Positions 17,198-49,664 of a stretch of 63,606 nt of DNA are shown piece by piece. A program made the position numbers and the translations under genes. Every line of letters starts with the position of its first letter. Position 1 is the stretch's first letter. This DNA is from Candidatus Zixiibacteriota bacterium (lineage in GTDB: Bacteria; Zixibacteria; MSB-5A5; GN15; FEB-12). The notes below the pieces were generated by a model, which did not search any database, was not told where the DNA came from, and saw nothing but the letters and a program-made list of their open reading frames with translations. The stretch lies in contig JAGGTI010000030.1 of the NCBI GenBank assembly GCA_021163775.1, positions 1 through 63,606 of the forward strand, given 5' to 3'.

Positions 17198-17216
17198 TGT
17201 AACCTTTCTTCTGATC

Positions 17217-17657
17217 CTATTTAAGGGTGTACATTTTGTCGAGTTTCAACGCTTCCGGCTCTTGGGCCAGAATGCAGTCGTTAAGATTGTCATGAGCCGT
17301 GGCGTAACCACCGCTCGGAACCGCTTTACCCTCTTCCGTAGTACGGATGGGGAACTTGAACCGTTTGAGCATACCGTTACGGAACTTGACTGTCCACATG
17401 ATAGCGTCCGTAGAACGCATCGGTGTTACAGTAGCACCCATGGGAACAAAGTCGGCGTAACCCCGAACCTCGATTGCCTGTACCGGGCAAATCTTGACGC
17501 AACTGTAACATTCCCAGCACATCTCTGGTTCCTGGTTGTAAGCCTTCATCGAGTCTTTGTTCAGCACCATGAGATCGTTAGGACATACGTACTGGCAAGC
17601 TGTCTTGTCCAGTGCCTTACATCCATCACACTTCTCAGTGATCACAAAACTTGGCAT
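17217..17657 (-). CDS. aprB: Adenylylsulfate reductase beta subunit
   Basis: A 146-residue ferredoxin-type subunit that carries electrons to the AprA flavin. Two [4Fe-4S] motifs are seen: 'CDGCKALDKTACQYVCP' and 'CWECYSCVKICPVQAI'. The C-terminal tail ('GGYATAHDNL...LDKMYTLK') is the AprB-specific extension that wraps around AprA. Strong AGGAGG ribosome site. The order is sat-aprB-aprA, and the electron donor is presumably QmoABC, encoded elsewhere in this window. Confidence 0.98.
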   Translation of the reverse strand: MPSFVITEKCDGCKALDKTACQYVCPNDLMVLNKDSMKAYNQEPEMCWECYSCVKICPVQAIEVRGYADFVPMGATVTPMRSTDAIMWTVKFRNGMLKRFKFPIRTTEEGKAVPSGGYATAHDNLNDCILAQEPEALKLDKMYTLK

Positions 17658-17732
17658 TAATACCTCCTGATTCGCGGCCTGTTACCAGGCTCAAATCAAC
17701 TTCAGCGTTTAAGTACTTAGCACTTATTATTC

Positions 17733-18962
17733 TTATTTCTTTATCTTAGCATCACCAGTGGCATGGCCGTGCAGTTTGACCTCCACCTTGTCTTCATCTT
17801 TCAAACTACCGTAGTACTCACGCAAAATCTTAAGTACTTCGGGACGACTAAACTCGGCCGGCACATCACCACCCTCGGACAGTGACTTGCGTAACGCCGT
17901 ACCGCTAAGGAACAACCGATCTTCCTTGGCATGTGGACAGGTCTTCATCGAAGCCATACCACCGCACTTGTAACACCAGAAAGTCCAGTCAATCGGCAAC
18001 ATCTTGCACTCCAGAGCACCTTCCCACAACTGGAAGAATATTTCCTGAGCATCAAACGGGCCGTAGTAGTTGCCCACGCCAGCATGGTCACGACCAATAA
18101 TCATATGGCTACAGCCAAAGTTCTGACGAAATACAGCATGCAACAGGCCTTCACGAGGACCGGCATAGCGCATATCGAGCGGATAACCACCCATCACTAC
18201 CCTATTCTTGTCAAAGTAGTATTCTACCAGAGTGTTGATGCAGTTGACACGCACATCAGCCGGAATATCGCCCGGTTTCAGTTTGCCAACCAACTGGTGA
18301 ATATACAGGCCATCAGATACTTCAATAGCGATCTTGGCCAGATACTCGTGACTGCGGTGCATCGGGTTGCGAAGCTGTAACGCGGCAATCGTCTTCCAGC
18401 CCTTTTCCTCGAAAATCTTGCGGCTCTCGGCTGGGCGCTGGTAGACATCCCCAAACTCTTGGGGGAAGTAGCTCTCGGATAAAACTTTCACCGGACCGGC
18501 AATATTCCAGTCCTTCTGCGCCATCACCATCTTGACACCCGGATGCTCTTCATCGGTAGTGGTGTAAACGTGCTGGCATTCAAAAGCCTTGTCGATCTGA
18601 TACGACTCGGTCACCTTCATGGTGCCCATGATTTCTTTGGTCTCACCAGAAATCAGACAGATCTCGGTACCCGGATCGAGTTTTTTATCATGCGACAAAG
18701 TAACCGGGATCGGCCAGAAAATGCCATTGGACATTTTCATGTCGGCACAGACGCCCTTCCAGTCATCATGTCCCATGAAACCTTCCAGCGGCGTGAAGCC
18801 ACCAATACCCATGAAAATCAGGTCGCCGGTCTCGCGGCTAGTCATCACTACCTTGGGCAGTGACTCCGCGCGCTTGAGCTCAGCATCGCGCTCCGCACCT
18901 TCCAGCAACAAAATCTTCAGCTTGTCACTGCCATGCGGAGATATCAGGTTGGATTTGGCCAT
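17733..18962 (-). CDS. sat: Sulfate adenylyltransferase (ATP sulfurylase)
   Basis: Activates sulfate with ATP to APS and pyrophosphate, the first step of dissimilatory sulfate reduction. Start at the ATG at 18962 ([11 protein letters not shown]), with GAGGG 9 nt upstream; an ATG five codons earlier overlaps that site. The protein has 409 residues. Nucleotide-binding signatures are '[14 protein letters not shown]' (HxxH) and '[10 protein letters not shown]'. A zinc-type Cys set ('[15 protein letters not shown]') near residue 320 is as in bacterial dissimilatory Sat. Transcribed with aprBA from a sigma70-like promoter at 18998-19027, divergent from qmoC. Confidence 0.97.
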
Positions 18963-18997
18963 ATTCGTTACCCTCATCTCTCTATTATGTAAAACTT

Positions 18998-27623: not shown

Positions 27624-28775
27624 CTACAGTTGTTTCCGAACCGACAGCGCCACTTTGTACAAGCCAGTGACGACCAACAGTCCCATCGCATAGACGGCGG
27701 CTGATATCGCCAACTCCGGAAGGGTCGGTACATATTCGACCACATAGTGCAAAGGATTCGGTACGAAACCGGCAATGATCAGACACAAACCCTTGTCTAT
27801 CCAAAGAGAGATAAACAGCAGGATACAGGCCATAACCAGCGTCGTTTCGTTGCGACGGGTTTTCGGTACGATTAACAAGCCGAGCGCCACCAAACCAAAG
27901 ACAGTTGAAGTCCACATCCACGGTACCAGGTTGCCGTGACCATGCAGGCCAACAAACAGATACTGAAAATGCGACAGGTGCTCAGGCATATTGGCGTAGA
28001 CCGCGGTGAATACCTCCATCAACACAAAGAAGATATTGATCGCCAGGGCGTAAGTCACAATTATGGCCACTTTCTGAATCGGCTCCTTACCGACATTAAA
28101 TTTGGTAAGTTTTCGCAGAAGCAAACAAACCAGAATCAAAAGCGCTGGGCCGGCAGAAAACGCCGAAGCCAGAAACCGCGGTGCCAAAATAGCAGTCATC
28201 CAGAACGGACGAGCCGCCAGACCGGCATACAGAAACGCCGTCACGGTGTGAATCGATACCGCCCATGGAATCGACAAAATAATCACCGGCTTGATCCATT
28301 TCGGCGGCGCGATCCCTTTGCGTTCAGCCCCAAGCGTAATGTGACTGATCACGAAGTTCAACACCAGATAGCCGCTTAATGCGACCGCATCCCAGAACAT
28401 CATCGACTGCGGGCTCGGATACAGGAAGACGTTGATGATCCGAAACGGCTGGCCCATGTCGACGAAAATAAACGTCATACAGACCACCACCGAACCAATC
28501 GCCACGAACTCACCTAAGATCGTGATCTTGCCAAACTCCTTGAAATTATGCAGGTAATATGGCAACACGACCATGACCGCCGAAGCCGCCACCCCGACCA
28601 TGAACGTAAACTGGGCGATATAGAATCCCCAGCTCACATCACGACTAAGACCGGTGACAGTCAGACCCTCGTTGTATTGACGGAGATAGAAGAAGAAGCC
28701 GATCCCCATCACGGCCAATAGGGTAGCCACCCATGACCAGTAACGTTTATCACCTTTTAGAGCATGCTCTATCAT
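27624..28775 (-). CDS. dsrP: DsrMKJOP complex, NrfD-type membrane subunit
   Basis: A 383-residue polytopic protein of the NrfD/PsrC family, predicted 10 transmembrane helices. It begins 'GDKRYWSWVATLLAVMGIGFFFY', then 'GLSRDVSWGFYIAQFTFMVGVAASAVM' as in DsrP/HmcC. It exchanges electrons with menaquinone within DsrMKJOP and pairs with the ferredoxin subunit DsrO, encoded 8 nt upstream. A GAGG site precedes the ATG at 28775. Last gene of the dsrMKJOP set; the CoADR-rhodanese gene follows. Confidence 0.95.
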   Translation of the reverse strand: MIEHALKGDKRYWSWVATLLAVMGIGFFFYLRQYNEGLTVTGLSRDVSWGFYIAQFTFMVGVAASAVMVVLPYYLHNFKEFGKITILGEFVAIGSVVVCMTFIFVDMGQPFRIINVFLYPSPQSMMFWDAVALSGYLVLNFVISHITLGAERKGIAPPKWIKPVIILSIPWAVSIHTVTAFLYAGLAARPFWMTAILAPRFLASAFSAGPALLILVCLLLRKLTKFNVGKEPIQKVAIIVTYALAINIFFVLMEVFTAVYANMPEHLSHFQYLFVGLHGHGNLVPWMWTSTVFGLVALGLLIVPKTRRNETTLVMACILLFISLWIDKGLCLIIAGFVPNPLHYVVEYVPTLPELAISAAVYAMGLLVVTGLYKVALSVRKQL

Positions 28776-28783
28776 TTTCTACC

Positions 28784-29587
28784 TCACAGCAAGTAATAGA
28801 CTTCGGGTTGGGTACCTGATCCTGGCTTACGACGCATTGAGAAGCGTTCAGCCAGGAGCTTGCGTACTTCGGATTCAGGATCTTCCAGATCACCGAAAAC
28901 CAACGCCCCTGCTTCGCACGCCTCGACACAGGCCGGAAGTTGGCCACGTGCCAGACGCTCATCGCAAAAAGTACACTTTTCCACTACGCCACGACTGCGA
29001 GTGGGGAAATCGGGCTGGATATCCTCGATGAACGGTCGCGGGTCGCGCCAGTTGAAACTACGCGAACCGTAAGGACAGGCCGCCATACAGTAACGACAGC
29101 CGATACAGCGATGCCAGTCTATCATGACCAGGCCGTCTTCTTCCCGTTTGAACGTAGCGCCAGTCGGACAGACTTTAACACAAGCCGGATCATCACAATG
29201 GTTACACAACACCGGCATATGGGCATGCTTGACAGCATCGTTGAGATACTCGTGATCCTGATCGCCCAGTGCATGCTCAAACGACTCTTTCCAAATCCAC
29301 TTCACTTCGTCCTTCGGGTTATCGAAATCAGGCACGTTATGCGTCAGATGACAGGCATCGAAACACTTGGTACACTCACCGGCCTCCTGACACTTGCGAA
29401 CGTCAATGACCATCGCCCACCGTTTGGCTGTCAGTGCCCCGGATCTTTCAATCGGCTTGACAACAGCCTCGGCGGCGGTATCTGCGAACGCATTGTCCTG
29501 ACCAAGAACTTTCGCCGGAGCACCTCCGGCCAGTCCGAGCGCCGTCAGTCCGGCCATCTTGAGGAATTTACGTCTTTCAACACTCAT
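28784..29587 (-). CDS. dsrO: DsrMKJOP complex, periplasmic four-cluster ferredoxin subunit
   Basis: Start at the ATG at 29587, with AAGGAGG upstream and a 4-nt ATGA overlap with dsrJ; the open frame runs 23 codons further but through dsrJ. The N-terminus is a twin-arginine signal ('RRKFLKMAGLTALGLAGGAP'), so export is by Tat. The 267-residue protein carries ferredoxin motifs 'CQEAGECTKCFDACH', 'CNHCDDPACVKVCP', 'CIGCRYCMAACP' and 'CTFCDERLARGQLPACVEAC', giving binding for about four clusters. It passes electrons between DsrJ and DsrP. Confidence 0.95.
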   Translation of the reverse strand: MSVERRKFLKMAGLTALGLAGGAPAKVLGQDNAFADTAAEAVVKPIERSGALTAKRWAMVIDVRKCQEAGECTKCFDACHLTHNVPDFDNPKDEVKWIWKESFEHALGDQDHEYLNDAVKHAHMPVLCNHCDDPACVKVCPTGATFKREEDGLVMIDWHRCIGCRYCMAACPYGSRSFNWRDPRPFIEDIQPDFPTRSRGVVEKCTFCDERLARGQLPACVEACEAGALVFGDLEDPESEVRKLLAERFSMRRKPGSGTQPEVYYLL

Positions 29588-29970
29588 GGCTGAACCTCCT
29601 TCGGCACTATATGACATTCCCAGCAATACGGCTCGACACCTAAATAGTCGTGACACCGATCACAAAACTTGTCTTTGTTCTCGTGACAACTTAAACAGGT
29701 AAACGACAGGCTCCGTTCGTACTGCACACCATCGGACCCGATCTCAAACCGTTCATCATTGCGTACCACCTGATCCCGCCACTCGTTGAGAAGATCCATG
29801 TGGTTGGCCTTCATCCAAGCGCTGTCACGTACACAGTCATCACCGCGCACCGCTTTCTCCAGTTCGATTTGATAGTCAGAACCGTCCATCGCCATATTGT
29901 ACCAGAGCGGTGAGGATATCAAAACCAGGAAAACAAGTATACCGATAAGCACTTTACCACCGTTATACAT
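29584..29970 (-). CDS. dsrJ: DsrMKJOP complex, triheme cytochrome c subunit
   Basis: Start at the ATG at 29970 (MYNGGKVLIGILVF), preceded by GGAGGG; the frame opens eight codons earlier. The 128-residue protein has one N-terminal membrane anchor and three CxxCH heme sites near the C-terminus: CLSCH, CDRCH and CWECH, as expected for DsrJ. It is periplasmic and contributes the c-type hemes of the membrane complex. It overlaps the dsrK end by 8 nt and dsrO by 4 nt, showing tight coupling. Confidence 0.96.
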   Translation of the reverse strand: MYNGGKVLIGILVFLVLISSPLWYNMAMDGSDYQIELEKAVRGDDCVRDSAWMKANHMDLLNEWRDQVVRNDERFEIGSDGVQYERSLSFTCLSCHENKDKFCDRCHDYLGVEPYCWECHIVPKEVQP

Positions 29971-31597
29971 TGCTGTCACCCTCCTCTCCGTCATCTTCTA
30001 TTCCAGGGTATGGAGTGCCTCGCAGATCAGTCTTGCGTTTCCCTTCACCTTCCAGAATCAACGCGTTCCCGACCATCTCGTGAACCCCTCCAACTTCCAC
30101 GCCCGGTACCCAGTACTCAAGCAGTGGCGGCAGAGTTGCCTTGTCGATTGCGCACATGCACAAGAGGATATTGGCATCATTGTTCTCGTGAACAAACTTG
30201 ACCGCATTGGCCCGCGGCAAACCACCCCGAAGGCGTGTCTCCATATTCTCGTCAGTGCCCAGACCAGCGCCCGAACCACAGCAGAAAGTCTGCTCGCGAA
30301 TCGTGTTTTCCGGCATCTCGACAAAATTGTTGCACACTTTATTGATGATATACCGAGGTTCATCCAGCAGACCCATAGCACGTGCCGGGTTACACGAATC
30401 GTGGTAGGTAGTGTGCCAGTGGTCGTTGCGGGATGGATCCAGTTTCAGTTTATTGTGATAGATCAAGTCGGACGTGAACTCGCTGATATGAACCATCTTG
30501 GTCGATGTGGCGTTATCGAACCGGGTGCCGGTGATCGGCGAAACCGGAACTTCAAGGAAATCAGCAGGACCATTCATCGTGTCCATATACTGATGCACCA
30601 CCCGCCACATGTGACCGCACTCACCGCCGATGATATGTTTCACACCGAGCCGTTTCGCTTCCATATAAATCTTGGCGTTTAGCCGTTTCATCATATCCGA
30701 CGAATGGAATAAACCAAAGTTGCCGCCCTCGGATGCATATGTACTCCAGGTGTAATCAAGCCCGATCTCGTGGAACAACAACAGGTAACCCAACAGCGTG
30801 TAATAGTGCGGCGATGCAAAGTAGTCGGCCGATGGTGCCACAAAGAGAATCTCAGCCCCCTTGCGGTTTATCGGCGCGTCTACTTTGATGCCGGTTATCT
30901 CCTCGAGTTCATCAACAGCAAACTCGATACTGTCGGCAAAACCATGCGGTTGAATACCAAGATGGTTCCCAGTCCGGTAGCAATTCGACAGCGGCGTGTT
31001 GATCCACTCGATACTCAAACCGAGCAGGTTCAGTAGTTCGCGACCCATCATAGTGATTTCGGCCGTGTCGATCCCGTACGGACAGAAAACCGAACAGCGC
31101 CGACACTCGGTGCACTGCATAAAGTAGTAGAACCACTCCTTGATGACCTGTTTGGTCAGTTTGCGTCCACCACCGATTTTACCTAAGATCTTTCCAGCCG
31201 TCGTAAAGTCATTGCGGTAAACCGACCGGAGTAGTTCGGCACGCATGACCGGCATATTTTTCGGATCGCCACCACCGATGAAATAGTGACATTTGTCGGC
31301 ACAGGCACCACACCGCACACAGATATCCATGAAAATCTGAAGGGTGCGATATTTTTTGAGCCGCTCGCGCAGGCCTTCGTGAATGATTTCCTGCCAGTTC
31401 TCCGGCAACTGCCAGTCATCATCGGTCGGTCTCCATTTGCGCGGATTGGGTAGGTCCAGATACTCAAGCGTTTCCGGAACCGCAGTGAAGTTCCACGTTC
31501 CAGGGCGAAATTCAGTCGCGGGATCCATCCAACCATTGGCCGATGGCTCAAACTTAATGCGGGCCATCTCTTCAGGTGTCTTGATATTTTTTGACAT
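29963..31597 (-). CDS. dsrK: DsrMKJOP complex, HdrD-like catalytic subunit
   Basis: A 544-residue cytoplasm-facing iron-sulfur protein related to heterodisulfide reductase HdrD, thought to reduce the DsrC trisulfide. Two [4Fe-4S] motifs, 'CVRCGACADKCHYF' (~residue 92) and 'CTECRRCSVFCPYG' (~160), precede two Cys-rich CCG-type domains. The second ends in 'TFCCGSGAGLGTDEN', the site of the special cubane cluster. 'ICMCAIDKATL' is also typical. It lies 3 nt after dsrM. Confidence 0.97.
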   Translation of the reverse strand: MSKNIKTPEEMARIKFEPSANGWMDPATEFRPGTWNFTAVPETLEYLDLPNPRKWRPTDDDWQLPENWQEIIHEGLRERLKKYRTLQIFMDICVRCGACADKCHYFIGGGDPKNMPVMRAELLRSVYRNDFTTAGKILGKIGGGRKLTKQVIKEWFYYFMQCTECRRCSVFCPYGIDTAEITMMGRELLNLLGLSIEWINTPLSNCYRTGNHLGIQPHGFADSIEFAVDELEEITGIKVDAPINRKGAEILFVAPSADYFASPHYYTLLGYLLLFHEIGLDYTWSTYASEGGNFGLFHSSDMMKRLNAKIYMEAKRLGVKHIIGGECGHMWRVVHQYMDTMNGPADFLEVPVSPITGTRFDNATSTKMVHISEFTSDLIYHNKLKLDPSRNDHWHTTYHDSCNPARAMGLLDEPRYIINKVCNNFVEMPENTIREQTFCCGSGAGLGTDENMETRLRGGLPRANAVKFVHENNDANILLCMCAIDKATLPPLLEYWVPGVEVGGVHEMVGNALILEGEGKRKTDLRGTPYPGIEDDGEEGDSNV

Positions 31598-31600
31598 AGG

Positions 31601-32596
31601 CTACTCTTCCTTATCTACCGGAAGACCGGCCGCTTTCATCAGATCACGGTATTCATCTTCATACTCTTCGTAAGTATGTACCTTGACCTTGGGGTTCCAG
31701 GGATTGATATGCCTTCGCACCCGGTTGTTGTTGGCCAGGTTGCGCGTCGGGCTCATGAAAACACCGGCGAAATGCATCAGCTTGCTAAGCGGGATATAGG
31801 CCAGCAGTACACTCACCAAAAAGATGTGTACAAAGAATACCAGCCCAACTTCACTCGATACCACCGGACTGAAACTCACCAGACCGATAGCCAACTCTTT
31901 GATACTCACCAGGTCAGTCTTGGTGAAATAGCGCATAAACACACCCGAGACCGTGATCCCCAACAACAGAAAGAGTGGGAAATAGTCCGCCGGAAGTGAA
32001 AGATAACGCAGTTTCTGATCAACCACACGACGCAAAAACAAGAACGTCAACGATGCGACAATAACCACGTCAGTAGTCAAAATTATCGGCAAACCGATCT
32101 GGAAGAAACCATCCAGATTCTGCATGGTCACCAGCCACGAGGGCACCGGCTCAATGAAATACTTACAGTGCCGAATCAGTACGATCAGTAACGACCAGTG
32201 AAATGCCATCCCTGCCGCCCACAACCACTTGGTCGGAGAATACAGAATTCTTGGACCTTCGACTACCACCGACCGTGTGTTACGGAACAGGGACCGAAAG
32301 AAAAATACTTCCAGGAACATCCGACACAACACCCAGAATAAATTGTGTGGGTTATCGAGTTTACTGGATTTGATCCAGGGAAGCGTTTTCTGTTGTCCGC
32401 AGGTAGTTGGTATCCGAAACGGTACCGCCGAACGCGCCCACTTTAGAACCCGGTAGATGACACCAATTACAAACGCAACAACCGCCGCGTAGGGAATCAC
32501 AATACCGAATAAGTCACGCCAACCGGCAAGTTCCGTTCCCGCTACAGCGATCAGGATAAGCACCACCACTGCGAGAAGAGAGAACATCACGCCCAT
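31601..32596 (-). CDS. dsrM: DsrMKJOP complex, cytochrome b subunit
   Basis: A 331-residue NarI-like membrane protein. Two N-terminal helices lead to a core of about five helices (~from residue 120) whose histidines bind heme b ('HWSLLIVLIRHCKYF', 'HIFLVSVLLAYIPLSKLMHF'). It oxidises menaquinol and pairs with DsrK, 3 nt downstream. A GAGGAGA site precedes the ATG. Typical length and order (dsrM-K-J-O-P). Confidence 0.95.
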   Translation of the reverse strand: MGVMFSLLAVVVLILIAVAGTELAGWRDLFGIVIPYAAVVAFVIGVIYRVLKWARSAVPFRIPTTCGQQKTLPWIKSSKLDNPHNLFWVLCRMFLEVFFFRSLFRNTRSVVVEGPRILYSPTKWLWAAGMAFHWSLLIVLIRHCKYFIEPVPSWLVTMQNLDGFFQIGLPIILTTDVVIVASLTFLFLRRVVDQKLRYLSLPADYFPLFLLLGITVSGVFMRYFTKTDLVSIKELAIGLVSFSPVVSSEVGLVFFVHIFLVSVLLAYIPLSKLMHFAGVFMSPTRNLANNNRVRRHINPWNPKVKVHTYEEYEDEYRDLMKAAGLPVDKEE

Positions 32597-36310: not shown

Positions 36311-36340
36311 AAAAACCGGAGAGACCAAAGTCTCTCCGGT
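36311..36340 (-). terminator. Terminator of the dsrABDNLC operon (bidirectional)
   Basis: A 9-bp perfect stem (36316-36324 with 36331-36339) flanked by long A runs on the plus-strand side, so the minus strand has a strong T tract. It lies 21 nt after dsrC and also serves the convergent kinase gene. Confidence 0.92.
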
Positions 36341-36360: not shown

Positions 36361-36678
36361 TCATACGCAACCGGTCGGCTTGGACAAACCCGCGACTTTG
36401 CAGGCACCCTTGGCCGGACCAGATGGAAACAGCTCATAAATTTTCTTGAGCGGGAAACCGGTTTCTTTGCAGAGCTTCCGGATCATCGGGGCAATCCCAA
36501 ACTTCAGGTAATATTCCCGAAGATATCTCACGAGGTGCCAGTGCTCTTCGGTCAGATCATCAACACCTTCAGTGGTAGCAAGAGCTATAGCTATCGCATC
36601 ATTCCACTCTGAAGGATCATCCATGAAACCGTCTTCATCAACTTCGATCTTGACTTCACCGTGTTCAAATGTCGGCAT
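36361..36678 (-). CDS. dsrC: Dissimilatory sulfite reductase sulfur carrier DsrC (gamma)
   Basis: A 105-residue sulfur-carrier protein with a flexible C-terminal arm holding two conserved Cys: 'KGACKVAGLSKPTGCV', 10 residues apart. They form the DsrC trisulfide with sulfite-derived sulfur. The body 'DEDGFMDDPSEWNDAIA', 'LTEEHWHLVRYLREYYLKFG' and 'PMIRKLCKETG' is typical of TusE/DsrC. The second conserved Cys distinguishes true DsrC from TusE-type proteins. Strong GAGGAG ribosome site. Last gene of the dsrA-B-D-N-L-C operon. Confidence 0.97.
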   Translation of the reverse strand: MPTFEHGEVKIEVDEDGFMDDPSEWNDAIAIALATTEGVDDLTEEHWHLVRYLREYYLKFGIAPMIRKLCKETGFPLKKIYELFPSGPAKGACKVAGLSKPTGCV

Positions 36679-36739: not shown

Positions 36740-38425
36740 CTAGTGCATTTCAATATAGCCACACGGACAGTTCTCAGCACATTTCTTACATCCGTTACAG
36801 TATTCCAGTTTGAACTTATACGGTTCGCCTTTGATCAAAGGCTTTATTACAGCATTATCCTGACAGTAACTCCAGCAATTAGTACAGTCAAAACACATAC
36901 CGCAACTCATGCAACGTTTGGCTTCCTGTATCGCCACATCCCTCGCCAGGGTAGCAACGATCTCAGCAGTCATACTCTTGAGCCGCTCATCGGGCACCAT
37001 CTCGGTAGCCTTGACCCGTTCCATACCTTCGTACCATTGCAACATTATTTTGTCCGCGGTTATTTTAGGCATACCGGATTTATCATCCGGCATCGCCTCA
37101 CCAGTGATCATCTCATGGATAGCAAAAGCCGCAACCCGACCGTGGGAGATAGCATCAATAGCCAGCGCAAGATTGATATTATCCCCACCAGCATAGACAG
37201 CATCGTCTTTGGTTTTGTACTTGTCATCGACCTTGATCCAGTCCCTACCCTCAATCAGGGATTCAAACCCGGTGAAATCCGGCTCCTGACTAATAGCTGC
37301 GATCAGAGTTGTAAACTTGAGGTCGTAGGTATCGCCTTCAATCGGCACCGGGCGACGGCGTCCGGAATCATCCGGTTCACCCAGTTCCATCCGCTGGCAT
37401 TTCATGCCGGTTGCCTTGCCGCTGTCATCGGTGTAGATTTCAATCGGCGCGGCAAGCAAATCGATCCGGACCCCTTCTTCTTCAGCTCCAACGATCTCTT
37501 CGTCAATCGCCGGCATCTCGGTCCGAGTACGACGGTACAGAATAGTCGCGTTGGCGCCCAACCGGCGCGCGATGCGAGCGGCATCAATGGCGGTATCACC
37601 ACCGCCGACCACCACCACTTGATCACCAACTTCGACAGTTTCGCCAGCGTTGACCTTGTGCAGGAAACCAGTACCGGTAAATACATTCGGTGCGTTTTCG
37701 CCTTCGACCCGAAGCAGGCGTCCCTGGTGCGCTCCCAGGCTGACAAAGATCACTTTGTATTCCTTGCGAAGGTCATCCATAGAAACATCTTTACCTACTG
37801 CGGTGTTGAGTTTCAATTCAACGCCCATATCACAAACCCGCTGAATCTCGGCATCGAGAATATCGGGTGGGAGACGGTAATCAGGAATACCGTAACGGAG
37901 CATACCGCCCGGTTTTTCAAACGCCTCAAAAACTGTAACCTGGTATCCACGACGCGCCAGATGATAAGCGCAAGTAATACCTGCAGGACCAGAACCAACT
38001 ACAGCGACTTTTTCCGCACGTACTTCATCAGTTAGTTTCTTCGGCACCAGTTTATGCTCCAGACCATAGTCACCGAGAAACCGTTCGATTTTGTTGATTC
38101 CTACAGCGCCGTCTTTTTCGTTCCGGTTACAACCGGTTTCGCATGGATGCGGACAGACTCGGCCACAGGTTGATGGAAACGGCGTGGTCTCCAGAAAAGT
38201 GTAGAATGCTTCTTCCATTGCCTGGTCGAGAGGTTTTTCGTGTTTCTCGGCCAGGGCAATAGTCATAAGTGCCAGCCTGATGTGATTGCCATTGGGACAA
38301 TTGTCACCGCACGGCGGCTTTTTCGGAACATGTTTTGGTCGAAGCGATGATGTTTCAACTGACGAGCCACCGCTACTCCTGAGACTCTTGAGCCCTTTTT
38401 TCTTTTTCTTAACTACTTTTACCAT
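36740..38425 (-). CDS. dsrL: DsrL-like iron-sulfur flavoprotein, NAD(P)H:acceptor oxidoreductase
   Basis: Start at the ATG at 38425 (MVKVVKKKKKGLKSLR), with GAAGG 7 nt upstream, giving 561 residues. An N-terminal GltD-like Fe-S domain has 'CGDNCPNGNHIRL' and 'CGRVCPHPCETGCNR'. Next come the FAD site 'VAVVGSGPAGITCAYHLARRG' and the NAD(P)H site 'QVVVVGGGDTAIDAARIARRLG'. The C-terminus has ferredoxin motifs 'CMSCGMCFDCTNC' and 'CNGCKKCAENCPCGY'. GltD small subunits lack this last domain and the glutamate synthase neighbour is absent, so DsrL is the better call. DsrL transfers electrons between NAD(P)H and DsrAB. The position between dsrN and dsrC supports this. Confidence 0.88.
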   Translation of the reverse strand: MVKVVKKKKKGLKSLRSSGGSSVETSSLRPKHVPKKPPCGDNCPNGNHIRLALMTIALAEKHEKPLDQAMEEAFYTFLETTPFPSTCGRVCPHPCETGCNRNEKDGAVGINKIERFLGDYGLEHKLVPKKLTDEVRAEKVAVVGSGPAGITCAYHLARRGYQVTVFEAFEKPGGMLRYGIPDYRLPPDILDAEIQRVCDMGVELKLNTAVGKDVSMDDLRKEYKVIFVSLGAHQGRLLRVEGENAPNVFTGTGFLHKVNAGETVEVGDQVVVVGGGDTAIDAARIARRLGANATILYRRTRTEMPAIDEEIVGAEEEGVRIDLLAAPIEIYTDDSGKATGMKCQRMELGEPDDSGRRRPVPIEGDTYDLKFTTLIAAISQEPDFTGFESLIEGRDWIKVDDKYKTKDDAVYAGGDNINLALAIDAISHGRVAAFAIHEMITGEAMPDDKSGMPKITADKIMLQWYEGMERVKATEMVPDERLKSMTAEIVATLARDVAIQEAKRCMSCGMCFDCTNCWSYCQDNAVIKPLIKGEPYKFKLEYCNGCKKCAENCPCGYIEMH

Positions 38426-38559
38426 GACATCGCCTTCACATTGATGAACACTGCCGGAGATCAGTTGCGTGCCGGGTTTGTTTAAGCAACCCGGAATTAA
38501 CACTCATTCGGAAGGTTCGATTGTTTTTTGCTTTTTCCCAACAGTTTCCTTTGTTGCCA

Positions 38560-40062
38560 TCAGCAGTCCGACGCCAGCACGCCAGTTTCGACTCCGGACC
38601 GTCTGAAAACCTCCATTATATTTGTTTTCTCCAGTTGGCTTTGACAATCAGCCTCGGGCTGGCTGGTTCGCATCTGAAAGTCATTCGCCTGGAAAACAAA
38701 CGCGTCCGCCCATTCAGGGAGACCATCGACGTGCAAATGTGTATAGCAAGCCAGACAGTTCTTGTAAATCAGACCGTCACGTTTGTTCCCCAGCCCTACT
38801 CCGGTTCGGACCTGCATACAACCGTCAGTGTTGACCGGTTCGATAGATGGTCCGGTATAATGAAATTCATGTCCCCGAATAACTGTACCAATTTCAAAAT
38901 ATGGATTAGCGCGATCGACCACGATCTCAGTGTAGCCGTGACCAACCGGTTTCGAGTGCATCTGAAGATCAAAGTTGAAAATCCCCGCCAGGTCATAGCG
39001 CTGGTTATTGCAGGTAAGAGAACGACACAAGAAGATCAACCCACCACACTCGGCATAGATCGGTAGACCAGACTTGGCCGCCTTCCGAACCGACTGTAAC
39101 ATCGACAGATTATGTGACAATTTCTCGGCCTGAGTTTCAGGAAAACCTCCGCCAATATACAAACTGTCGATTTCGGGCAGTGATTCGTCTTCAAGCGAAG
39201 ATACCGGCACAAGTTCGGCCCCCCTGCTCTGAAGGGCGGCGAGATTCTCCGGATAGTAAAACGTAAACACCGAATCGCAAAAATAACCGATTCGAACCCT
39301 GCTCTTGATCGGAGTGATTTTGGGGCGTTTAGTCACAGCCAGAGATTCGGTGTCGCCGGCAATTTCAATCATGCGATCAATATCAAGATAATCTTCAGCA
39401 ATCGATATCAACCGCTCCTGCAACCCAGTATCCTCACCAAATTCCGATGGCGTAACCAGTCCGAGATGTCGTCCCGGAATCAGCGTAGAACCATCATCAA
39501 GTTTTGGAATAGCACCTAACACTGGCAAACCGCACGTTTGTTCAATCGCCTCGGTAATCACTCGTCTATGCCGGTTGCCTGCCACCCGGTTAAGAATTAC
39601 CCCGGCCAGCTTTAGCTCCGGCTCCAACACCTGACAACCTTTAACCAGCGCCGCTACGGTGCGCGTAACCTTGGTGCAGTTCACTACCAGCACCACCGGC
39701 GCTTTGAGCAGGCGAGCCAGACTCGCCGTACTGTGAGTACCGGAGGCGTCTCGACCATCAAGCAGACCACGGTTACCTTCTATAAGAGCCAGGTCAGATC
39801 CAGTCGTAGCCTCAGCAAACGATGCCGCAACCGTGTCCGGGGTAACCATATAAGTATCAAGGTTGCGACACTCTGTCTGCGCCGCCCACGCCAGCCAGGC
39901 CGCATCAATATAGTCCGGTCCTTTCTTGAACACGGAGAGGGACAGACCTCGACGCCGCAAAGCTGTTAGAAAACTGAGGCTGGTTATCGTCTTGCCTGCA
40001 TCTCCAGACAACCCGGCAATAACCAGCCTTGGACACTTCGTTACCATACAACCAACCGTCAT
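38560..40062 (-). CDS. dsrN: Siroheme amidase / cobyrinate a,c-diamide synthase-like (DsrN)
   Basis: A 500-residue glutamine-dependent amidotransferase of the CbiA/CobB family. In dsr operons it is called DsrN and amidates siroheme for DsrAB (siro-amide). N-terminal ATP-binding region 'LVIAGLSGDAGKTITSL' (P-loop-like), 'FKKGPDYIDAAWL' and 'LIEGNRGLLDG'. C-terminal GATase: nucleophile Cys in 'LPIYAECGGLIFL', then 'GHEFHYT' and 'CYTHLHVDG'. The location between dsrD and dsrL, and no other corrin gene nearby, favours DsrN over cobalamin synthesis. No clear ribosome site at 40062. Confidence 0.88.
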   Translation of the reverse strand: MTVGCMVTKCPRLVIAGLSGDAGKTITSLSFLTALRRRGLSLSVFKKGPDYIDAAWLAWAAQTECRNLDTYMVTPDTVAASFAEATTGSDLALIEGNRGLLDGRDASGTHSTASLARLLKAPVVLVVNCTKVTRTVAALVKGCQVLEPELKLAGVILNRVAGNRHRRVITEAIEQTCGLPVLGAIPKLDDGSTLIPGRHLGLVTPSEFGEDTGLQERLISIAEDYLDIDRMIEIAGDTESLAVTKRPKITPIKSRVRIGYFCDSVFTFYYPENLAALQSRGAELVPVSSLEDESLPEIDSLYIGGGFPETQAEKLSHNLSMLQSVRKAAKSGLPIYAECGGLIFLCRSLTCNNQRYDLAGIFNFDLQMHSKPVGHGYTEIVVDRANPYFEIGTVIRGHEFHYTGPSIEPVNTDGCMQVRTGVGLGNKRDGLIYKNCLACYTHLHVDGLPEWADAFVFQANDFQMRTSQPEADCQSQLEKTNIMEVFRRSGVETGVLASDC

Positions 40063-40088
40063 ACGATCAAAACCATGAAAACCAAGTC

Positions 40089-40334
40089 CTAATCGTTGGC
40101 GGCTCCTTCTTTGTGCGGTAGCTCAATGAAACTGCCACCAAAGTAGGTGTAAACACATCTCCCGGTGTCGATCAAATTCTTGATTGCTAACTTGCAAGTT
40201 TTCTTGTCGAACTCATCACCAAGAAGTTGTTTCATCGCCTTGGTCAAATCCATCGGCTTGAGCTTTTTGATGCCCTGGGCCTCTGAGATCATTTTATACA
40301 TCATCTCAGTAATTTCTTCGACCGTCTTAGCCAT
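40089..40334 (-). CDS. dsrD: DsrD, DsrAB-activating winged-helix protein
   Basis: An 81-residue protein following dsrB by 12 nt. It has the DsrD arrangement: a helical N-terminus, 'GIKKLKPMDLTKAMKQLLGDEFDKKTCKLAIKNLIDTGR' -like winged-helix core (key stretches at residues ~21-60), then 'YTYFGGSFIELP' as the beta wing. DsrD is known as an allosteric activator of sulfite reductase in reducing-type dsr systems and is used as a marker for sulfite reduction. Strong AAGGAGG site. Sequence is quite diverged but the position is characteristic. Confidence 0.88.
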   Translation of the reverse strand: MAKTVEEITEMMYKMISEAQGIKKLKPMDLTKAMKQLLGDEFDKKTCKLAIKNLIDTGRCVYTYFGGSFIELPHKEGAAND

Positions 40335-40346
40335 ATCAAGACCTCC

Positions 40347-41429
40347 TTAGAAAGTAATATGCGTCGAGCGCTTATAGGTCAAACCGGCGTGCTTGAAATC
40401 GTCGACATGTTCCTTCTGGAACTCAATACCGGACATCTTGAAGAACTTCGGCCAACCTATACGCTCGATCCACTCGCCCATTCTCTCATATTTATTGGCG
40501 TTAGCCGCCCAAAGTTCAACGATGTTCTTAATTGCACTCGTCACTTCTGGCCAGCGTGGTGGATTGTTCGGCAGGAATGGGATTGCCAGCTTGGAAAACA
40601 TAGGTTCATGGCGCGCATTGGACACCTTGCCGCCTAACCAGATCGAAATACCATCGTTCAAAGGATCGGCGATAGGCATTGCGGGACAGACCGTAAAACA
40701 GTTGGCACAGAACATACACTGCTCTTCAATAATCTCAACCGACTCAAAACCGTCAACTGTCGCCGGACGAACCGCCGCAGTCGGACATGAAGCACTGACA
40801 TTTGGAATTTCGCACATCTTCTTGACTTTGTCATGCATGATTTTCGGTGGGCGCCGGTGAATACCAAGAATAGCGATATCCGAGCAGTGCACCGCACCGC
40901 ACATATTCAGGCAACAGGCCAGGGCGATACGCAGTTTGCCCGGCAATATCATATTCTCAAAGTACTCAATCAACTCGTCCATTGTAGCCTTGACGACACC
41001 GGACGCATCGGTGGCCGCCGAGTGACAGTGAATCCAGCCCTGAGTGTGAACGATAGCGGAAATTGAGTTGCCAATACCACCAATCGGGTGGCCCATTTCC
41101 TTGAGGTCAGCGATCAGTGGCTCAATGTTCTCCTGCTTGTCCATCAGAAACTCGACATTGTGGCGACTGGTGAATCTCAGATAACCGTCACAATACTTGT
41201 CCGCCAGGTCACAATACATGCGAATCTTCTGGATACTGGTCAGACGACCGGAGGCCGCCCTTACGGTGAACAGTTTAGCACCACTGTGGGAAACATGAAC
41301 CATGACACCCGGCTTGAGAACTTCGTGGTACTTCCACTTACCGTAGTTTTCTTTGATTATGGGCGGCAGAAACTGGTCATGATGTGGCGGCCCGTAATCT
41401 GTCCGTCTTTCGTGTACTGCATCAGCCAT
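40347..41429 (-). CDS. dsrB: Dissimilatory sulfite reductase beta subunit
   Basis: A 360-residue siroheme/[4Fe-4S] sulfite reductase subunit. Substrate-pocket residues lie in '[12 protein letters not shown]', and the siroheme/cluster Cys motif is '[18 protein letters not shown]' with a third Cys region '[11 protein letters not shown]'. The ferredoxin insert is '[16 protein letters not shown]'. It pairs with DsrA, 39 nt upstream, in an alpha2-beta2 complex that reduces sulfite and hands sulfur to DsrC. AGAGG ribosome site. Confidence 0.98.
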
Positions 41430-41468: not shown

Positions 41469-42671
41469 TTAGTCTTCGGAGCCATCATCCTCTTCGAAGT
41501 ATTCTTCGTAGAACACGTACGGGTTCTCACGAGGATGAGCGACCATCTCCGGTATCGGTTCCACCTCAATAGCTTCGAGGAAGTTGCCCAGACCGACGCG
41601 CTGAATGAATTCACCCACACGCTCACGGTTCTTACCTTCTTCACACCAGACATCCCAGATGCGTTCCGTCAGATCCTTGATTTCCTGATATGGCGGTTCC
41701 ATCTTGATGAATGGGATAATCACTGAAGACAACAGAGCACCTTCAACGATCGGAGCCTTGGCACCCAACAGAATCGTAGCACCCCGGTCTTTACCAGGAG
41801 CCAGAGCTTTAGGCATAACATTGATACAGTGCATACAATGACGACAGTAGCTGTTCTCAATCGTCAGTTCTTTACCGTTCCAGTCCATACACTTGGCCGG
41901 ACAGTTGTCAACCACGTCAGCCTTGATATCCATCCCGCCATCGGCATATTCCTTGATCGCATCTTTATCCATCTGGATATCGTCACGCCACATACCAATG
42001 ATAGACATATCAGAACGGGCAATCGAGGCTACACAGTCATTCGGACAGCCGGAAAATTTGAATTTGAACTTATATGGAAACGCCGGGCGATGTAACTCAT
42101 CCTGGTAAGCCATAGTGAAGTCATAGCAGGCGCCCATAGTGTCGTAGCAGGCCCATTCGCAACGCGCCTGACCACAGCAACAACTGGGGGTACGCACATC
42201 GGAACCAGATCCACCAATATCAAAATTGATCTTCTGCAGTTCGTCGAAAGTCGGCTCCAGTTCGTCGGTGGTTGTCCCCAGCAAAATGATATCGCCTGTG
42301 GAACCGTGCATGTTGGTCAGTCCGGAACCATGCTTTTCCCAGATGTCGCAGATTTTCCGCAACGCTTCGGTGGTATAGAACCAGCCAGCTGGTTGGTTGA
42401 TGCGCATGGTGTGAAAGTGCGAAATGTTCGGGTACTCATCCGGCAGGTCATTGTAACGACCAATTACACCACCGCCATAGCCCATCACTCCGACGATACC
42501 ACCATGTTTCCAATGGCCTATCTTTTCTCTGTATGACCGTTCCAGCAAACCCAGTAGGTCTTTACCCATCGGGTTATCCGCCGCAGCCATTTTGATTTCC
42601 GTGACAAAACTCGGCCACTTCCCCTTCTCAAGTTCGTCAAGCATTGGGGTTTTAGGATATGCGTCTGCCAT
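41469..42671 (-). CDS. dsrA: Dissimilatory sulfite reductase alpha subunit
   Basis: A 400-residue subunit with '[17 protein letters not shown]' and '[17 protein letters not shown]' at the N-terminus. The family signature is '[18 protein letters not shown]' plus '[16 protein letters not shown]', holding siroheme/[4Fe-4S] ligands, and the ferredoxin motif is '[15 protein letters not shown]'. Sequence is very close to reductive-type DsrA of sulfate reducers. Catalyses sulfite reduction with DsrB. A consensus-like promoter lies at 42827-42855 and a ~150-nt leader precedes a GAGGAG site. First gene of dsrA-B-D-N-L-C. Confidence 0.98.
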
Positions 42672-46030: not shown

Positions 46031-46109
46031 AAAAAGCCCCCCTATCGGGGGGGCTTTTGATATTCCTGCCTGCTATCCGAAGGGCACTACATACCCTTGT
46101 ACGGGTTCG
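46031..46109 (-). repeat. 79-bp qmoB 3' end plus terminator, copy 2 (original)
   Basis: Contains the final codons of qmoB and the terminator following it. Its diverged duplicate is at 43099-43177, same orientation. Confidence 0.85.
46032..46058 (-). terminator. Terminator of qmoAB
   Basis: An 11-bp GC-rich stem flanked by A/T runs, about 30 nt after the qmoB stop. Confidence 0.9.
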
Positions 46110-48372
46110 GGCCCACTGTTTCGATAACTTCCAGAAAGTCATCGAAAATCTTCGGGATCTTCTCACCATCGGTGATCGCGACATCATGCACCTCGACCCG
46201 CTCTTCCTCGAGTACAAGCTGTTTGAGTTTCTCTTGCACGTTGCCCATTCGGTAATCTGCCAATTCCGAGCCACGAACAAAGTGACACTGATAGTCATCA
46301 CCCTTGGCACAACCCAGAAGAATAACCCCATCGAAACCGGACGCCAGCGCATCGCTGATCCAGACAGTGTTAATCGAACCGAGACAGCGCAACGGGATAA
46401 TCCTGATCATTGCATTGTACTGCATCCGTTTACGGGCCGCCTGCTCCAGCGCGGGAAGCGCATCGTTTTCACACACAAAAGCGAGAATACGTGGTTTTTC
46501 CTCGAATTCGTCAGGTACATCAATCGCCTTGATCATTGATGAGACCATATTGATACTATAGTTGGCGAACGAGATAATCCGTTCCGGACAGGCACCCATA
46601 CAAATTCCACACCGCCGGCAACGAAGCGGGTTAAGTTCCGGTGTCCCCTTTTCGTCTTCATCAATAGCCCCGAACGGACATTCCTCGGTGCACCGCTTAC
46701 ACTGGGTACAACGTTGCAGAGCAAATTCGGGAGTACTGGTATCACCAGCCCGAGGGTGAACCGCTTTGCCCTGTGCTATAGCCTCAACTGCCTGAATCGA
46801 CTTGAAAGCGGCACCATAGGCATCATTGACACTCGAAGCGAGATCCATCGGTGCCCGCACAGCTCCAGCGGCATAAATCCCAGTTCGACGGGTTTCATAT
46901 GGAAAACAAATGAAATGTGAGTCAGGAAAACCATACTTGAGGGTGGGCAGGTCAGTACCCTGACGGTAGGTTAGATTGAGGATCATCGCACCTTTTTCGG
47001 CGCTTTCCGCCTCTTTCTTGCCGTCAGCAGTTTCGCCTTCAGCCGGAGCAGACTCGGTCGCATCCTCACCCTCGGCTTCGGCCTCACCATCGGTCTCGGC
47101 CTCGACCTCGGTATTAGTAGGAATCGGATCGTCTACTTGAGTCGATGGCACCATACCGGTAGCCAGCACAACCATATCGGCCTTGATACGGATATCCTCA
47201 CCCAACAAAGTCTCTTCAACATCAACTGCGATCTTGCCGTCGGTATCCTTAGTCACCCCGACAATTTCACCTTTGGTAAAGAAAACCCCTTCATCGTCCT
47301 GAACCGAGGCATAGAACCTCTCGAACTGAGCCGGTGAGCGGAGATCTTTGTATATAACGTATATCTTAGCATCGGGATACTGTTCCCGTACATACTTAAC
47401 CTGCTTCAACGATACCCTACAACAAACGGCCGAACAGTACGGCAAATGATCCTGATCGCGAGAGCCGGCGCACTGAATAAAAGCAATGCTGTCAATCGGT
47501 TTGCCGTCCGATGGCCGTTTAATACCACCGTTTTGGGCCATCTCTTCGATAGTGATATTCGTAACGATGTCCGGTGAACTGCCATAGCCGAGATGAGTCA
47601 GCTTGGTGGCATCGTACGGACGGAATCCAGTAGCCTGAATGATTGAGCCAACGGTCAGCTCAGTAGTGCCCTGGCCGTTTTTCAAAGTCACAGCCAACTG
47701 GCCCGGCTGGCCGGAGGTCCGCTCCACTTCGGTCGACAGATGCACCGTGATGCCCTCGTTGGCCTCAATTTCGCTGATCAGAGTCTCATAGCCGGAGTCT
47801 TCCAAATCTTTATACGGCGGGTGCTTGGGAAACACTTTCTTGAACTTGGTCGCCCAGCCGCCTAAGCGGTCTTCTTTTTCAACTATAATAACTTTGTACC
47901 CGGCGGTAGCCGCGGCCTTAGCCGCCGTCATACCGGTCATTCCACCACCGACTACCAAAATATCTTTGCTGGTTTCCTCAATCAGCGGGGTAGGCGGCGC
48001 GGTAGCTCTGAGCTTGGCTACCCCCATACGGATATAATCCTCCGCCAACATCTGAGTATCTTCATCATTGGCCGGATGACACCAGGCAACCTGCTCACGC
48101 AGTGGCGTGCGATCGACCAGAATATTGGGACCAAAATCAAACAATTCCGGAAAAACACGCTGAGAACAAGCGGCAACTACAACCCGATTGATCCCTTCGT
48201 TCTTGATATCATTCTGGATAAGAGCAACACCCTCGGAGCTACAGAGGATATCATGTTCGCGGCAAATCTCGGCCTTGGCTTCGCCGGTAGCTACCTTGGC
48301 AACTTTTTCACAATCGAACGATTTGCCAAGATTACAGCCCTTGCAGATATATACACCAACTTTGGTTTCCAT
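46087..48372 (-). CDS. qmoB: Quinone-interacting oxidoreductase subunit B (HdrA/MvhD-like)
   Basis: A 761-residue flavin and Fe-S protein, soluble QmoABC subunit that contacts AprAB. FAD site 'ILVVGGGMTGMTAAKAAATAG' (~139), HdrA-type 'FIQCAGSRDQDHLPYCSAVCC' (~298), two ferredoxin motifs 'CTQCKRCTEECPFGAI' and 'CRRCGICMGACPERI' (~555-598), and a C-terminal MvhD-like domain (~620-760: 'ILAFVCENDA', 'GCAKGDDYQCHFVRG'). An acidic Glu/Ala-rich insert (about residues 418-462) interrupts the HdrA part before 'GAMILNLTYRQGTDLP'; this is unusual. It starts 5 nt after qmoA. Confidence 0.96.
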   Translation of the reverse strand: METKVGVYICKGCNLGKSFDCEKVAKVATGEAKAEICREHDILCSSEGVALIQNDIKNEGINRVVVAACSQRVFPELFDFGPNILVDRTPLREQVAWCHPANDEDTQMLAEDYIRMGVAKLRATAPPTPLIEETSKDILVVGGGMTGMTAAKAAATAGYKVIIVEKEDRLGGWATKFKKVFPKHPPYKDLEDSGYETLISEIEANEGITVHLSTEVERTSGQPGQLAVTLKNGQGTTELTVGSIIQATGFRPYDATKLTHLGYGSSPDIVTNITIEEMAQNGGIKRPSDGKPIDSIAFIQCAGSRDQDHLPYCSAVCCRVSLKQVKYVREQYPDAKIYVIYKDLRSPAQFERFYASVQDDEGVFFTKGEIVGVTKDTDGKIAVDVEETLLGEDIRIKADMVVLATGMVPSTQVDDPIPTNTEVEAETDGEAEAEGEDATESAPAEGETADGKKEAESAEKGAMILNLTYRQGTDLPTLKYGFPDSHFICFPYETRRTGIYAAGAVRAPMDLASSVNDAYGAAFKSIQAVEAIAQGKAVHPRAGDTSTPEFALQRCTQCKRCTEECPFGAIDEDEKGTPELNPLRCRRCGICMGACPERIISFANYSINMVSSMIKAIDVPDEFEEKPRILAFVCENDALPALEQAARKRMQYNAMIRIIPLRCLGSINTVWISDALASGFDGVILLGCAKGDDYQCHFVRGSELADYRMGNVQEKLKQLVLEEERVEVHDVAITDGEKIPKIFDDFLEVIETVGPNPYKGM

Positions 48373-48377
48373 GATTC

Positions 48378-49664
48378 TTACCTCCCTCCGCCCTGGTTAA
48401 TCGCTTTCAAGGCCGCCCCGGTAGCATCCTGAACTGTGGTCGCTACATCAGAGGGTTGCATTGTGGTTCCGGCACCGATGACACCTTTGCCGGTATCAGG
48501 CGCAATGAACCCGAATTCATCGAGCTGGGTGTCAAGCGGGGGTGGCGTATCGGCCGTATTCGGCACCATACCGATGGCCAAAACCGCCATATCGACCTCG
48601 GTCTGTGTGATCTGACCGGTGAGGGTGTTCTCGGCTTCGAGAATGACGTTCTTGTTGTCCGGATTCTCCAAAATTTGAGCCACTTTGCCCCGATGGAAGA
48701 AAAACTTCTCGTCTTTCTGAACCTTGATATAGAAATCTTCCATCCGGCCAGGCGAGCGAACATCTATATAGAACAGGTGAATTTCTGCCTCCGGGTAGCG
48801 CTCACGCACATAAGTGGCCTGCTTCATTGAAGCCAGACAACATATCGCCGAACAGTACGGCAGGTGGTTTTCATCGCGTGAACCGGCACACTGTACAAAC
48901 CCGACCTTCTTGACCTCGGCACCATCTGATGGCCGTACAATTTCGCCACCAGTAGGTCCGGATTCGGAAGCGTACCGTTCCATCATAACATTCGTGATAA
49001 CGTTCGGATACTGGCCAAAACCGAGAGTGTCAAGCTTGGTAGCATCATACGGTCTCCAGCCAGTTGCCCAAACAATCGCACCAGTCTTGACCGTAATTGT
49101 GCGCTCTTTTTGATTGAGGTCGATCGCGTCGTATTCACACGCTTCGACGCATTTCTTCATCCGTGCATCACCCGCAAACTGCGGATCAACCACATAACGA
49201 GGCGGATAAGCCAATTGGTGCGGCAGGTAGATCGCCTTGGTCTTGCCTATACCGTAGTTGAAGTCGTCGTCGCGCTCTATTTCACAGACCTTCTCGCATT
49301 CACCGCACGCGGTGCATTTCTCTGTCACAAAGCGTGGTGAAAGCTTGATCTTGACTTCGAAATCACCCGGGCCACCGGAAACCGAAACGACTTCCGCCAA
49401 AGTAAGAACGCGAACAAATGGGTTTATGCGCATCCGCTTGAGATTGATCTCCATACCACAGGAGGGTGGACATAATTTGGGGAAATACTGGTTCATCGCG
49501 GCGACCCGCCCACCAAGCGAGGGCAGTTTTTCCACGAGAACCACCTGCTTGCCGACTTCGGCGGATTCAATCGCGGTAGTCATACCCGCAATCCCGCCGC
49601 CAACGACCAGCGTATCCGCCTTGATCGGTTCGTCGGTGCCTGCAACTGGTTCAAATTGGGCCAT
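48378..49664 (-). CDS. qmoA: Quinone-interacting oxidoreductase subunit A (HdrA-like)
   Basis: A 428-residue HdrA-like flavoprotein. FAD site 'TLVVGGGIAGMTTAIESAEVG', 'LPSLGGRVAAMNQYFPKLCPPSCGMEI' -type region (~45-72), a ferredoxin motif 'CTACGECEKVCEIERDDD' (~117), and 'FVQCAGSRDENHLPYCSAICC' (~250). Together with QmoB and QmoC it channels quinol electrons to APS reductase. GGGAG ribosome site; promoter at 49730-49758. Confidence 0.96.
   Translation of the reverse strand: MAQFEPVAGTDEPIKADTLVVGGGIAGMTTAIESAEVGKQVVLVEKLPSLGGRVAAMNQYFPKLCPPSCGMEINLKRMRINPFVRVLTLAEVVSVSGGPGDFEVKIKLSPRFVTEKCTACGECEKVCEIERDDDFNYGIGKTKAIYLPHQLAYPPRYVVDPQFAGDARMKKCVEACEYDAIDLNQKERTITVKTGAIVWATGWRPYDATKLDTLGFGQYPNVITNVMMERYASESGPTGGEIVRPSDGAEVKKVGFVQCAGSRDENHLPYCSAICCLASMKQATYVRERYPEAEIHLFYIDVRSPGRMEDFYIKVQKDEKFFFHRGKVAQILENPDNKNVILEAENTLTGQITQTEVDMAVLAIGMVPNTADTPPPLDTQLDEFGFIAPDTGKGVIGAGTTMQPSDVATTVQDATGAALKAINQGGGR

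Follow-up and report, generated by a model that had tools for sequence, protein, structure and literature searches.

The dissimilatory sulfite reductase (dsr) operon of a Candidatus Zixiibacteriota bacterium carries both dsrD, which a first-pass annotation described as a marker of reducing systems, and dsrL, which it described as best known from sulfur oxidizers, raising the question of which process the operon serves and what each of these genes contributes to it. We analyzed the whole 63,606-nucleotide stretch of DNA around the operon (the window) and favor, with a probability of roughly 0.8, a reductive dsrABDNLC operon of a sulfate or sulfite reducer, in which a DsrL-2 protein would supply electrons from NADPH and a DsrD-like protein would activate the sulfite reductase DsrAB. 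Overall, the analysis confirmed that dsrD and dsrL share one operon in this bacterium, but earlier publications had already described the pairing, both in Zixiibacteriota and in several further phyla.

The operon occupies the minus strand from 42671 to 36361, with short gaps between genes. It opens with dsrA (41469..42671, 400 aa; TIGR02064, 577 bits against a cut-off of 393) and dsrB (40347..41429, 360 aa; TIGR02066, 492 bits against 342), which encode the alpha and beta subunits of dissimilatory sulfite reductase. The dsrD-like gene (40089..40334, 81 aa) lies 12 nt downstream of dsrB and is followed by dsrN (38560..40062, 500 aa), a cobyrinate a,c-diamide synthase-like gene above the cut-offs of TIGR00379 and NF002204 and, given its position in a dsr operon, a presumed siroheme amidase. 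For dsrL (36740..38425), we corrected the start from 38503 to 38425, an ATG with GAAGG upstream, which shortens the protein from 587 to 561 residues and coincides with the start in its relatives. The last gene, dsrC (36361..36678, 105 aa; PF04358, 125 bits; TIGR03342, 112 bits), retains both C-terminal cysteines (C-x10-C-V end), and downstream of it is a predicted intrinsic terminator on the same strand with an 11-pair stem and a T run (36315..36340). DsrA, DsrB and DsrC thus all passed curated NCBIfam or Pfam cut-offs. The first-pass annotation had proposed this single dsrA-B-D-N-L-C operon, and its order recurs, as far as contigs extend, in 40 of 40 dsrB loci retrieved from Zixiibacteriota of the same class, so the arrangement is not due to chance.

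In a DsrAB tree, the window sequence fell in the reductive half (split support, 100), which together with the profile matches firmly places it, at the level of sequence, with the reductive bacterial type. The remaining genes for sulfate reduction are also found in the window: aprA, aprB and sat for sulfate activation and reduction to sulfite (15287..18977, minus strand; TIGR02061, NF003166 and PF12139); dsrMKJOP for the membrane electron transfer complex of the menaquinol route (27624..32596, minus strand; NF038037, NF045796, NF038038, NF045797 and NF045798, all above cut-off); and qmoC (19711-20904, plus strand; NF038018, 421 bits), which lies apart from HdrA-like candidates for qmoA and qmoB (46087..49664, minus strand) whose names we infer from HdrA2-like matches and lengths. 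With these inferred qmoAB names, the sat-apr-qmo-dsrMKJOP set is complete within the window, in agreement with the earlier view that Sat, AprAB, QmoABC and DsrA point to reduction. A gene for a CoA-disulfide reductase/rhodanese fusion, which could handle persulfides, adjoins dsrP.

The reductive type of DsrAB and the presence of a dsrD-like gene argue against an operon that is bidirectional or mainly oxidative, in which DsrL would take electrons from DsrAB and pass them to NADP+ while the cell oxidizes sulfide or sulfur or carries out disproportionation. Such use would fit the fusion gene next to dsrP, a published suggestion that Acidobacteria sharing this gene set run the pathway reversibly (PMC6018796) and the occurrence of DsrL-2 with oxidative DsrAB in sulfur oxidizers (PMC7596348). 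We nevertheless consider it improbable: the window DsrL has arginine at the position of Cys42 in NfnB, as in reducers, whereas the DsrL sequences found beside oxidative DsrAB carry cysteine there, and the genome to which the window belongs (a MAG, 77% complete) yielded one DsrE-family match and not a dsrEFH set. Because of this DsrE-family result, reversal or disproportionation, which the first-pass annotation had allowed for, received no positive support. The direction of a Dsr pathway cannot be proven from genes alone, since cable bacteria and Desulfurivibrio oxidize sulfide with a canonical reductive set (PMC10591310).

The identity of the DsrD-like protein was less straightforward, as the Pfam DsrD model (PF08679; gathering cut-off, 24.2 bits) gave no match to it at E-values up to 10, and the name dsrD is therefore based on where the gene lies, on the predicted fold and on a distant similarity between profiles. 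Like DsrD of Desulfovibrio vulgaris (PDB 1ucr/1wq2; PF08679), the protein is about 80 aa long, is encoded directly downstream of dsrB and is predicted to form a winged helix (AlphaFold2 model, pLDDT 87), but it carries a YTYFGGSFIELPH motif in place of the FWSSGSTTMY of canonical DsrD. A structure search with the model ranked DsrD (1wq2) 42nd, with TM scores of 0.59/0.72 amid many winged-helix matches, and is therefore not specific. Comparison of profiles with hhalign was uninformative before trimming because of false N-terminal extensions; in the trimmed version, the subtype matched canonical DsrD with a probability of 84% and a score of 33.9, whereas the best of 200 column-shuffled controls reached 20.6. 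The two are thus related, but distantly.

That score, well above shuffled controls, is one of several reasons to doubt that the 81-aa gene encodes an unrelated winged-helix protein, such as a DNA-binding regulator, that came to lie after dsrB by chance. The small gene directly follows dsrB in 40 class relatives and in Desulfobacterota loci with the same subtype, a position that is constant in all loci. Among these Desulfobacterota, the kin protein L223 has PF08679 as its top Pfam match (E = 0.0014, below cut-off), and a genome-wide search with this model produced weak matches exactly at the subtype gene in nine genomes. Moreover, genomes with the subtype at their dsr locus contained no PF08679 protein above cut-off, and Bacillota proteins in the same place after dsrB, which are DsrD candidates, likewise failed the model. 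An unrelated protein would agree with the lack of any PF08679 match, with the low rank of DsrD among the structural matches and with a best Pfam resemblance to the TBPIP/Hop2 winged helix (below cut-off); one Desulfobacterota genome also encodes a PrmA-like protein that carries a similar domain. Taking both sides together, we regard a chance neighbor as unlikely. Both the Desulfobacterota intermediates and the comparison with Bacillota weaken the case for reading the PF08679 failure as evidence of a non-DsrD protein. The profile of the window subtype did not score above shuffles against the Bacillota proteins themselves. The first-pass annotation had made its case depend on the family profile; the protein indeed lacks PF08679, but the sequence comparisons indicate that the fault probably lies in an overly narrow model and not in the identification of the gene.

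For a DsrD-like protein in this operon, a tentative interpretation, possible but well short of established, is that DsrD comprises several divergent winged-helix subtypes at one operon position. The subtype with the YTYFGGSFIELPH motif, missed by Pfam, would accompany reductive DsrAB in Zixiibacteriota, Acidobacteriota, Actinomycetota, SAR324 and a single lineage of Desulfobacterota. The way in which it touches or controls DsrAB may differ from that of the Desulfovibrio protein. Pfam DsrD detected 0 DsrD proteins in the DsrL-2C genomes tested here and also missed DsrD of a Desulfosporosinus-containing Bacillota family, and surveys based on that model alone would therefore score such organisms as DsrD-negative. 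We also considered whether the subtype is tied to DsrL and rejected this, because eleven Desulfobacterota genomes encode it in dsrABDN operons without an adjacent dsrL and no DsrL was detected in that lineage. The best DsrL-like proteins of Desulfobacterota genomes with the subtype look like paralogs; inspection of neighboring ORFs placed the two strongest (L250 and L251) beside 2-oxoacid oxidoreductase-like genes, and both group with paralogs in a tree.

The window DsrL has the domain order Fer4_20, Pyr_redox_2 and Fer4_21, matching the layout of DsrL-2 (a ferredoxin domain at the N terminus, Rossmann domains for FAD and NAD(P), a linker and a ferredoxin at the C terminus). Fer4_21 scored below the Pfam cut-off, but its C-terminal cysteines are invariant in an alignment of 16 sequences, and this ferredoxin is of the two-cluster ([4Fe-4S]) type. 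That the protein is instead a GltD/NfnB-type paralog with another function is extremely improbable: the proteins belong to one large family and the NCBIfam match, which passed its cut-off, is only to the broad subfamily PRK12771, but a 39-row tree separated DsrL proteins from 14 paralogs (support, 97), in line with the two-cluster ferredoxin, DsrL-specific ligand substitutions and the location of the gene within the dsr operon wherever the contig of a relative extends to it. Neighboring genes agree, with dsrL flanked by dsrN and dsrC and not linked to a pyruvate/ketoacid:ferredoxin (2-oxoacid:ferredoxin) oxidoreductase gene.

Within the same tree, the group beside oxidative DsrAB was set apart (support, 98) and a group from Zixibacteria, Acidobacteriota and Methylomirabilota was recovered (support, 94). 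According to PMC7596348, DsrL-2 beside reductive DsrAB is recognized by Ser or Thr in place of NfnB Cys39, Arg in place of NfnB Cys42 and a YRR motif. The window protein has S52 and R55 at these two positions, and YRRT is invariant in the class-level alignment; YRR is an NADP(H) motif but not decisive for DsrL, because paralogs often have it too. No NAD-domain insert of ~32 aa, a mark of DsrL-1A along with a longer linker, was seen in the 561 residues, in a comparison set without a verified DsrL-1A sequence. The ligand substitutions, the YRR motif and the tree support, from sequence, assignment to the type of DsrL-2 found with reductive DsrAB, and to the subcluster published as DsrL-2C (Diao et al. 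2023, PMC10591310).

Our observations cover which genes are present, their order and types, and where they fall in trees; for the mechanism we draw on the published biochemistry of relatives (NADPH specificity, DsrL–DsrAB contact, DsrD activation and pathway direction). DsrAB would reduce sulfite and load the product on DsrC, and DsrMKJOP would draw on the quinone pool to reduce the trisulfide form of DsrC. By analogy, DsrL-2 would bind DsrAB, and its likely role is to feed it electrons from NADPH during sulfite reduction, while the DsrD-like protein would activate DsrAB as DsrD does in Desulfovibrio. Enzyme assays showed DsrL-2 of D. amilsii to be specific for NADP(H), and the model published for this type has NADPH driving sulfite reduction side by side with the DsrMKJOP route (PMC7596348). 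The earlier suggestion of DsrL as an NAD(P)H donor alongside DsrMKJOP therefore stands for the parallel supply, but narrows to NADPH, as a prediction, and does not extend to NAD(P)H generally.

Pairing of dsrD with dsrL is not rare in this group; published work shows it to be the rule among DsrL-2C organisms, and Zixibacteria are among them. DsrD with DsrL-2 in Zixibacteria was already reported in 2020–2023, and a nearly identical gene order in 2019. DsrABDL-2C systems are described from Zixibacteria (named explicitly), Acidobacteriota, Armatimonadota, Actinomycetota and others (Diao et al. 2023, PMC10591310; Loffler et al. 2020, PMC7596348); each genome combines reductive DsrAB, DsrD and a DsrL-2 with Arg for the Cys ligand and YRR. 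We found no essential difference from the systems as described there, and the window represents one more such genome. Candidatus Thermonerobacter thiotrophicus, from another phylum, also has dsrD and dsrL in one operon of near-identical order (dsrAB-dsrD-dsrN-hyp-dsrL-dsrC; Thiel et al. 2019, PMC6338057), but with a hypothetical gene between dsrN and dsrL that is absent in the window. In an Acidobacteria locus (L074), again from another phylum, dsrN does not lie between dsrD and dsrL, unlike in the window. Peatland and marine Acidobacteriota (Hausmann et al. 2018, PMC6018796; PMC8528874) resemble the window in having dsrD and dsrL-2 with sat-apr-qmo, and dsrL adjacent to dsrC.

Six contiguous minus-strand genes form the operon: dsrA (42671-41469), dsrB (41429-40347), a dsrD-like gene encoding 81 aa (40334-40089), dsrN (40062-38560), dsrL (38425-36740) and dsrC (36678-36361). 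They are separated by gaps of 39, 12, 26, 134 and 61 nt and share an 11-pair intrinsic terminator 3' of dsrC, confirming the earlier placement of the dsrD-like gene and dsrL in a single dsrA-B-D-N-L-C operon. The dsrL start proposed by the first-pass annotation, 38503, was too early; relatives use the ATG at 38425, which has GAAGG shortly 5' of it. DsrA, DsrB, DsrN and DsrC scored over curated cut-offs, DsrL has the expected domain order and DsrC contains both C-terminal cysteines. Elsewhere, the window encodes dsrMKJOP, siroheme genes, sat-aprBA and qmoC, and two HdrA-like genes are taken as qmoAB candidates. Genes at 21331-25781 (-) for porphobilinogen synthase, uroporphyrinogen methyltransferase/synthase, precorrin-2 dehydrogenase and glutamyl-tRNA reductase are assigned to siroheme supply. 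A CoA-disulfide reductase/rhodanese fusion (25831-27519, -), possibly a persulfide-handling enzyme, adjoins dsrP; an RsbRD_N-domain protein directly 5' of dsrM (32609-33328, -; PF14361, 63 bits) is a candidate dsrT; and a Ser/Thr kinase with TPR repeats (33620-36295, +) separates dsrMKJOP from dsrABDNLC, on the opposite strand to both.

A quick-method tree of 39 proteins, computed without bootstrap and without verified DsrL-1A, split DsrL from 14 GltD/NfnB-type paralogs (support 97), with the oxidative-associated group forming a separate branch (98), and placed the window protein among Zixiibacteriota, identifying it as DsrL. Across the class, Arg55, Cys65, Cys69, Cys117, Cys121, Cys125 and Glu140 are invariant, Ser or Thr occupies position 52 and the YRRT motif is conserved, although YRR is undecisive for identity because it is also common among paralogs. 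By motif spacing rather than structural alignment, positions 52 and 55 correspond to NfnB Cys39 and Cys42, where Ser/Thr and Arg mark DsrL-2 beside reductive DsrA according to Loffler et al. (PMC7596348); in the compared proteins encoded next to oxidative DsrAB, the second of these residues is Cys. A concatenated DsrAB tree (40 rows) likewise placed the window in the reductive half, as the first-pass annotation had read from sequence, with oxidative types split off at support 100. One Thermoleophilia contig (L077:1783-10520, +) carries reductive dsrAB-D-L directly followed by oxidative dsrAB-L, resembling a published Actinomycetota case.

The DsrD family profile expected of the 81-aa protein was not found: PF08679 (cut-off, 24.2 bits) had no match in the window, at the gene's position when the whole genome was searched, or in any of the 17 relatives from the class that were scanned. 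The profile exceeded its cut-off in 57 of 58 genomes from the class of Desulforhopalus and in none of ten non-Desulfobacterota genomes carrying DsrL-2 and this subtype. AlphaFold2 predicts a winged helix (pLDDT 87), a fold that is unspecific for DsrD because many winged-helix proteins in the PDB scored similarly weakly, with DsrD 1wq2 at rank 42. Of 297 genomes sampled across the phylum Desulfobacterota, 12 carry the subtype. In 11 of them the gene lies 3' of dsrB within a dsrABDN operon, whereas the remaining genome (L227:5989-6813, +) has a similar winged helix as the N-terminal domain of a PrmA-like methyltransferase. Nine carriers have a weak genome-wide PF08679 match exactly at the subtype gene, and for one protein PF08679 was the best Pfam match, below cut-off (E 0.0014). 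A profile of the subtype including these intermediates matched canonical DsrD with a score of 33.9 (probability 84%), whereas the highest score among 200 column shuffles was 20.6. We conclude that PF08679 is a narrow model and that the gene in the window most probably encodes a divergent DsrD. The subtype is not tied to DsrL, since no recognisable DsrL was found in the Desulfobacterota carriers, and a DsrL-specific DsrD is therefore not proposed.

In the Bacillota family containing Desulfosporosinus, PF08679 matched none of 21 genomes at cut-off, and the small post-dsrB protein (L240-L249) is a third sequence type, with a weak PF08679 match in one of two tested. Its profile comparison with the window subtype did not exceed shuffles, so a single DsrD superfamily lacks support here.

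The genes, their order, types and placement are the established part of the model. By analogy with assays of D. amilsii DsrL-2, NADPH would pass electrons through DsrL-2 to DsrAB; that enzyme was NADP(H)-specific (PMC7596348), so the earlier proposal of DsrL as electron donor is predicted to hold for NADPH, not for NAD(P)H generally. DsrAB may be activated by the DsrD-like protein, as reported for DsrD (Ferreira et al. 2022, cited by PMC10591310), and quinol electrons would reach the DsrC trisulfide through DsrMKJOP. The dsrEFH set was not found, with one DsrE-family match, in the window's own assembly (2.37 Mb, 77% complete; the window lies on contig 4). Gene content alone cannot prove direction, but reductive DsrAB, the DsrD-like gene and the lack of a dsrEFH set make a reductive pathway most likely.

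Co-occurrence of dsrD and dsrL-2 in a reductive operon is already known, and the window is one more such genome. In Diao et al. 2023, Zixibacteria appear in the list of phyla that combine the full pathway with dsrD and DsrL-2, and DsrL-2C is defined as the reductive indicator (PMC10591310); Loffler et al. 2020 report DsrL-2 of Zixibacteria (PMC7596348); Thiel et al. 2019 give the order dsrAB-dsrD-dsrN-hyp-dsrL-dsrC (PMC6338057); and Hausmann et al. 2018 describe dsrD together with dsrL in Acidobacteria (PMC6018796). The sole point we did not find stated in the compared literature is that Pfam DsrD misses the window subtype, and even this divergence may be familiar to specialists, because Hausmann et al. 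note hydrophobic positions common to acidobacterial and Desulfovibrio DsrD.

Among related genomes, dsrB was present in 45 of 117, and the dsrA-B-D-N-L-C order was kept in all 40 of these loci that were fetched, as far as contigs extend. The closest named relative in a contig search was a Candidatus Zixiibacteriota MAG (L073; DsrL identity, 71%). In two loci (L039:5931-6545 and L063:5946-7630), dsrL is seemingly broken or frameshifted, reflecting either assembly errors or decay.
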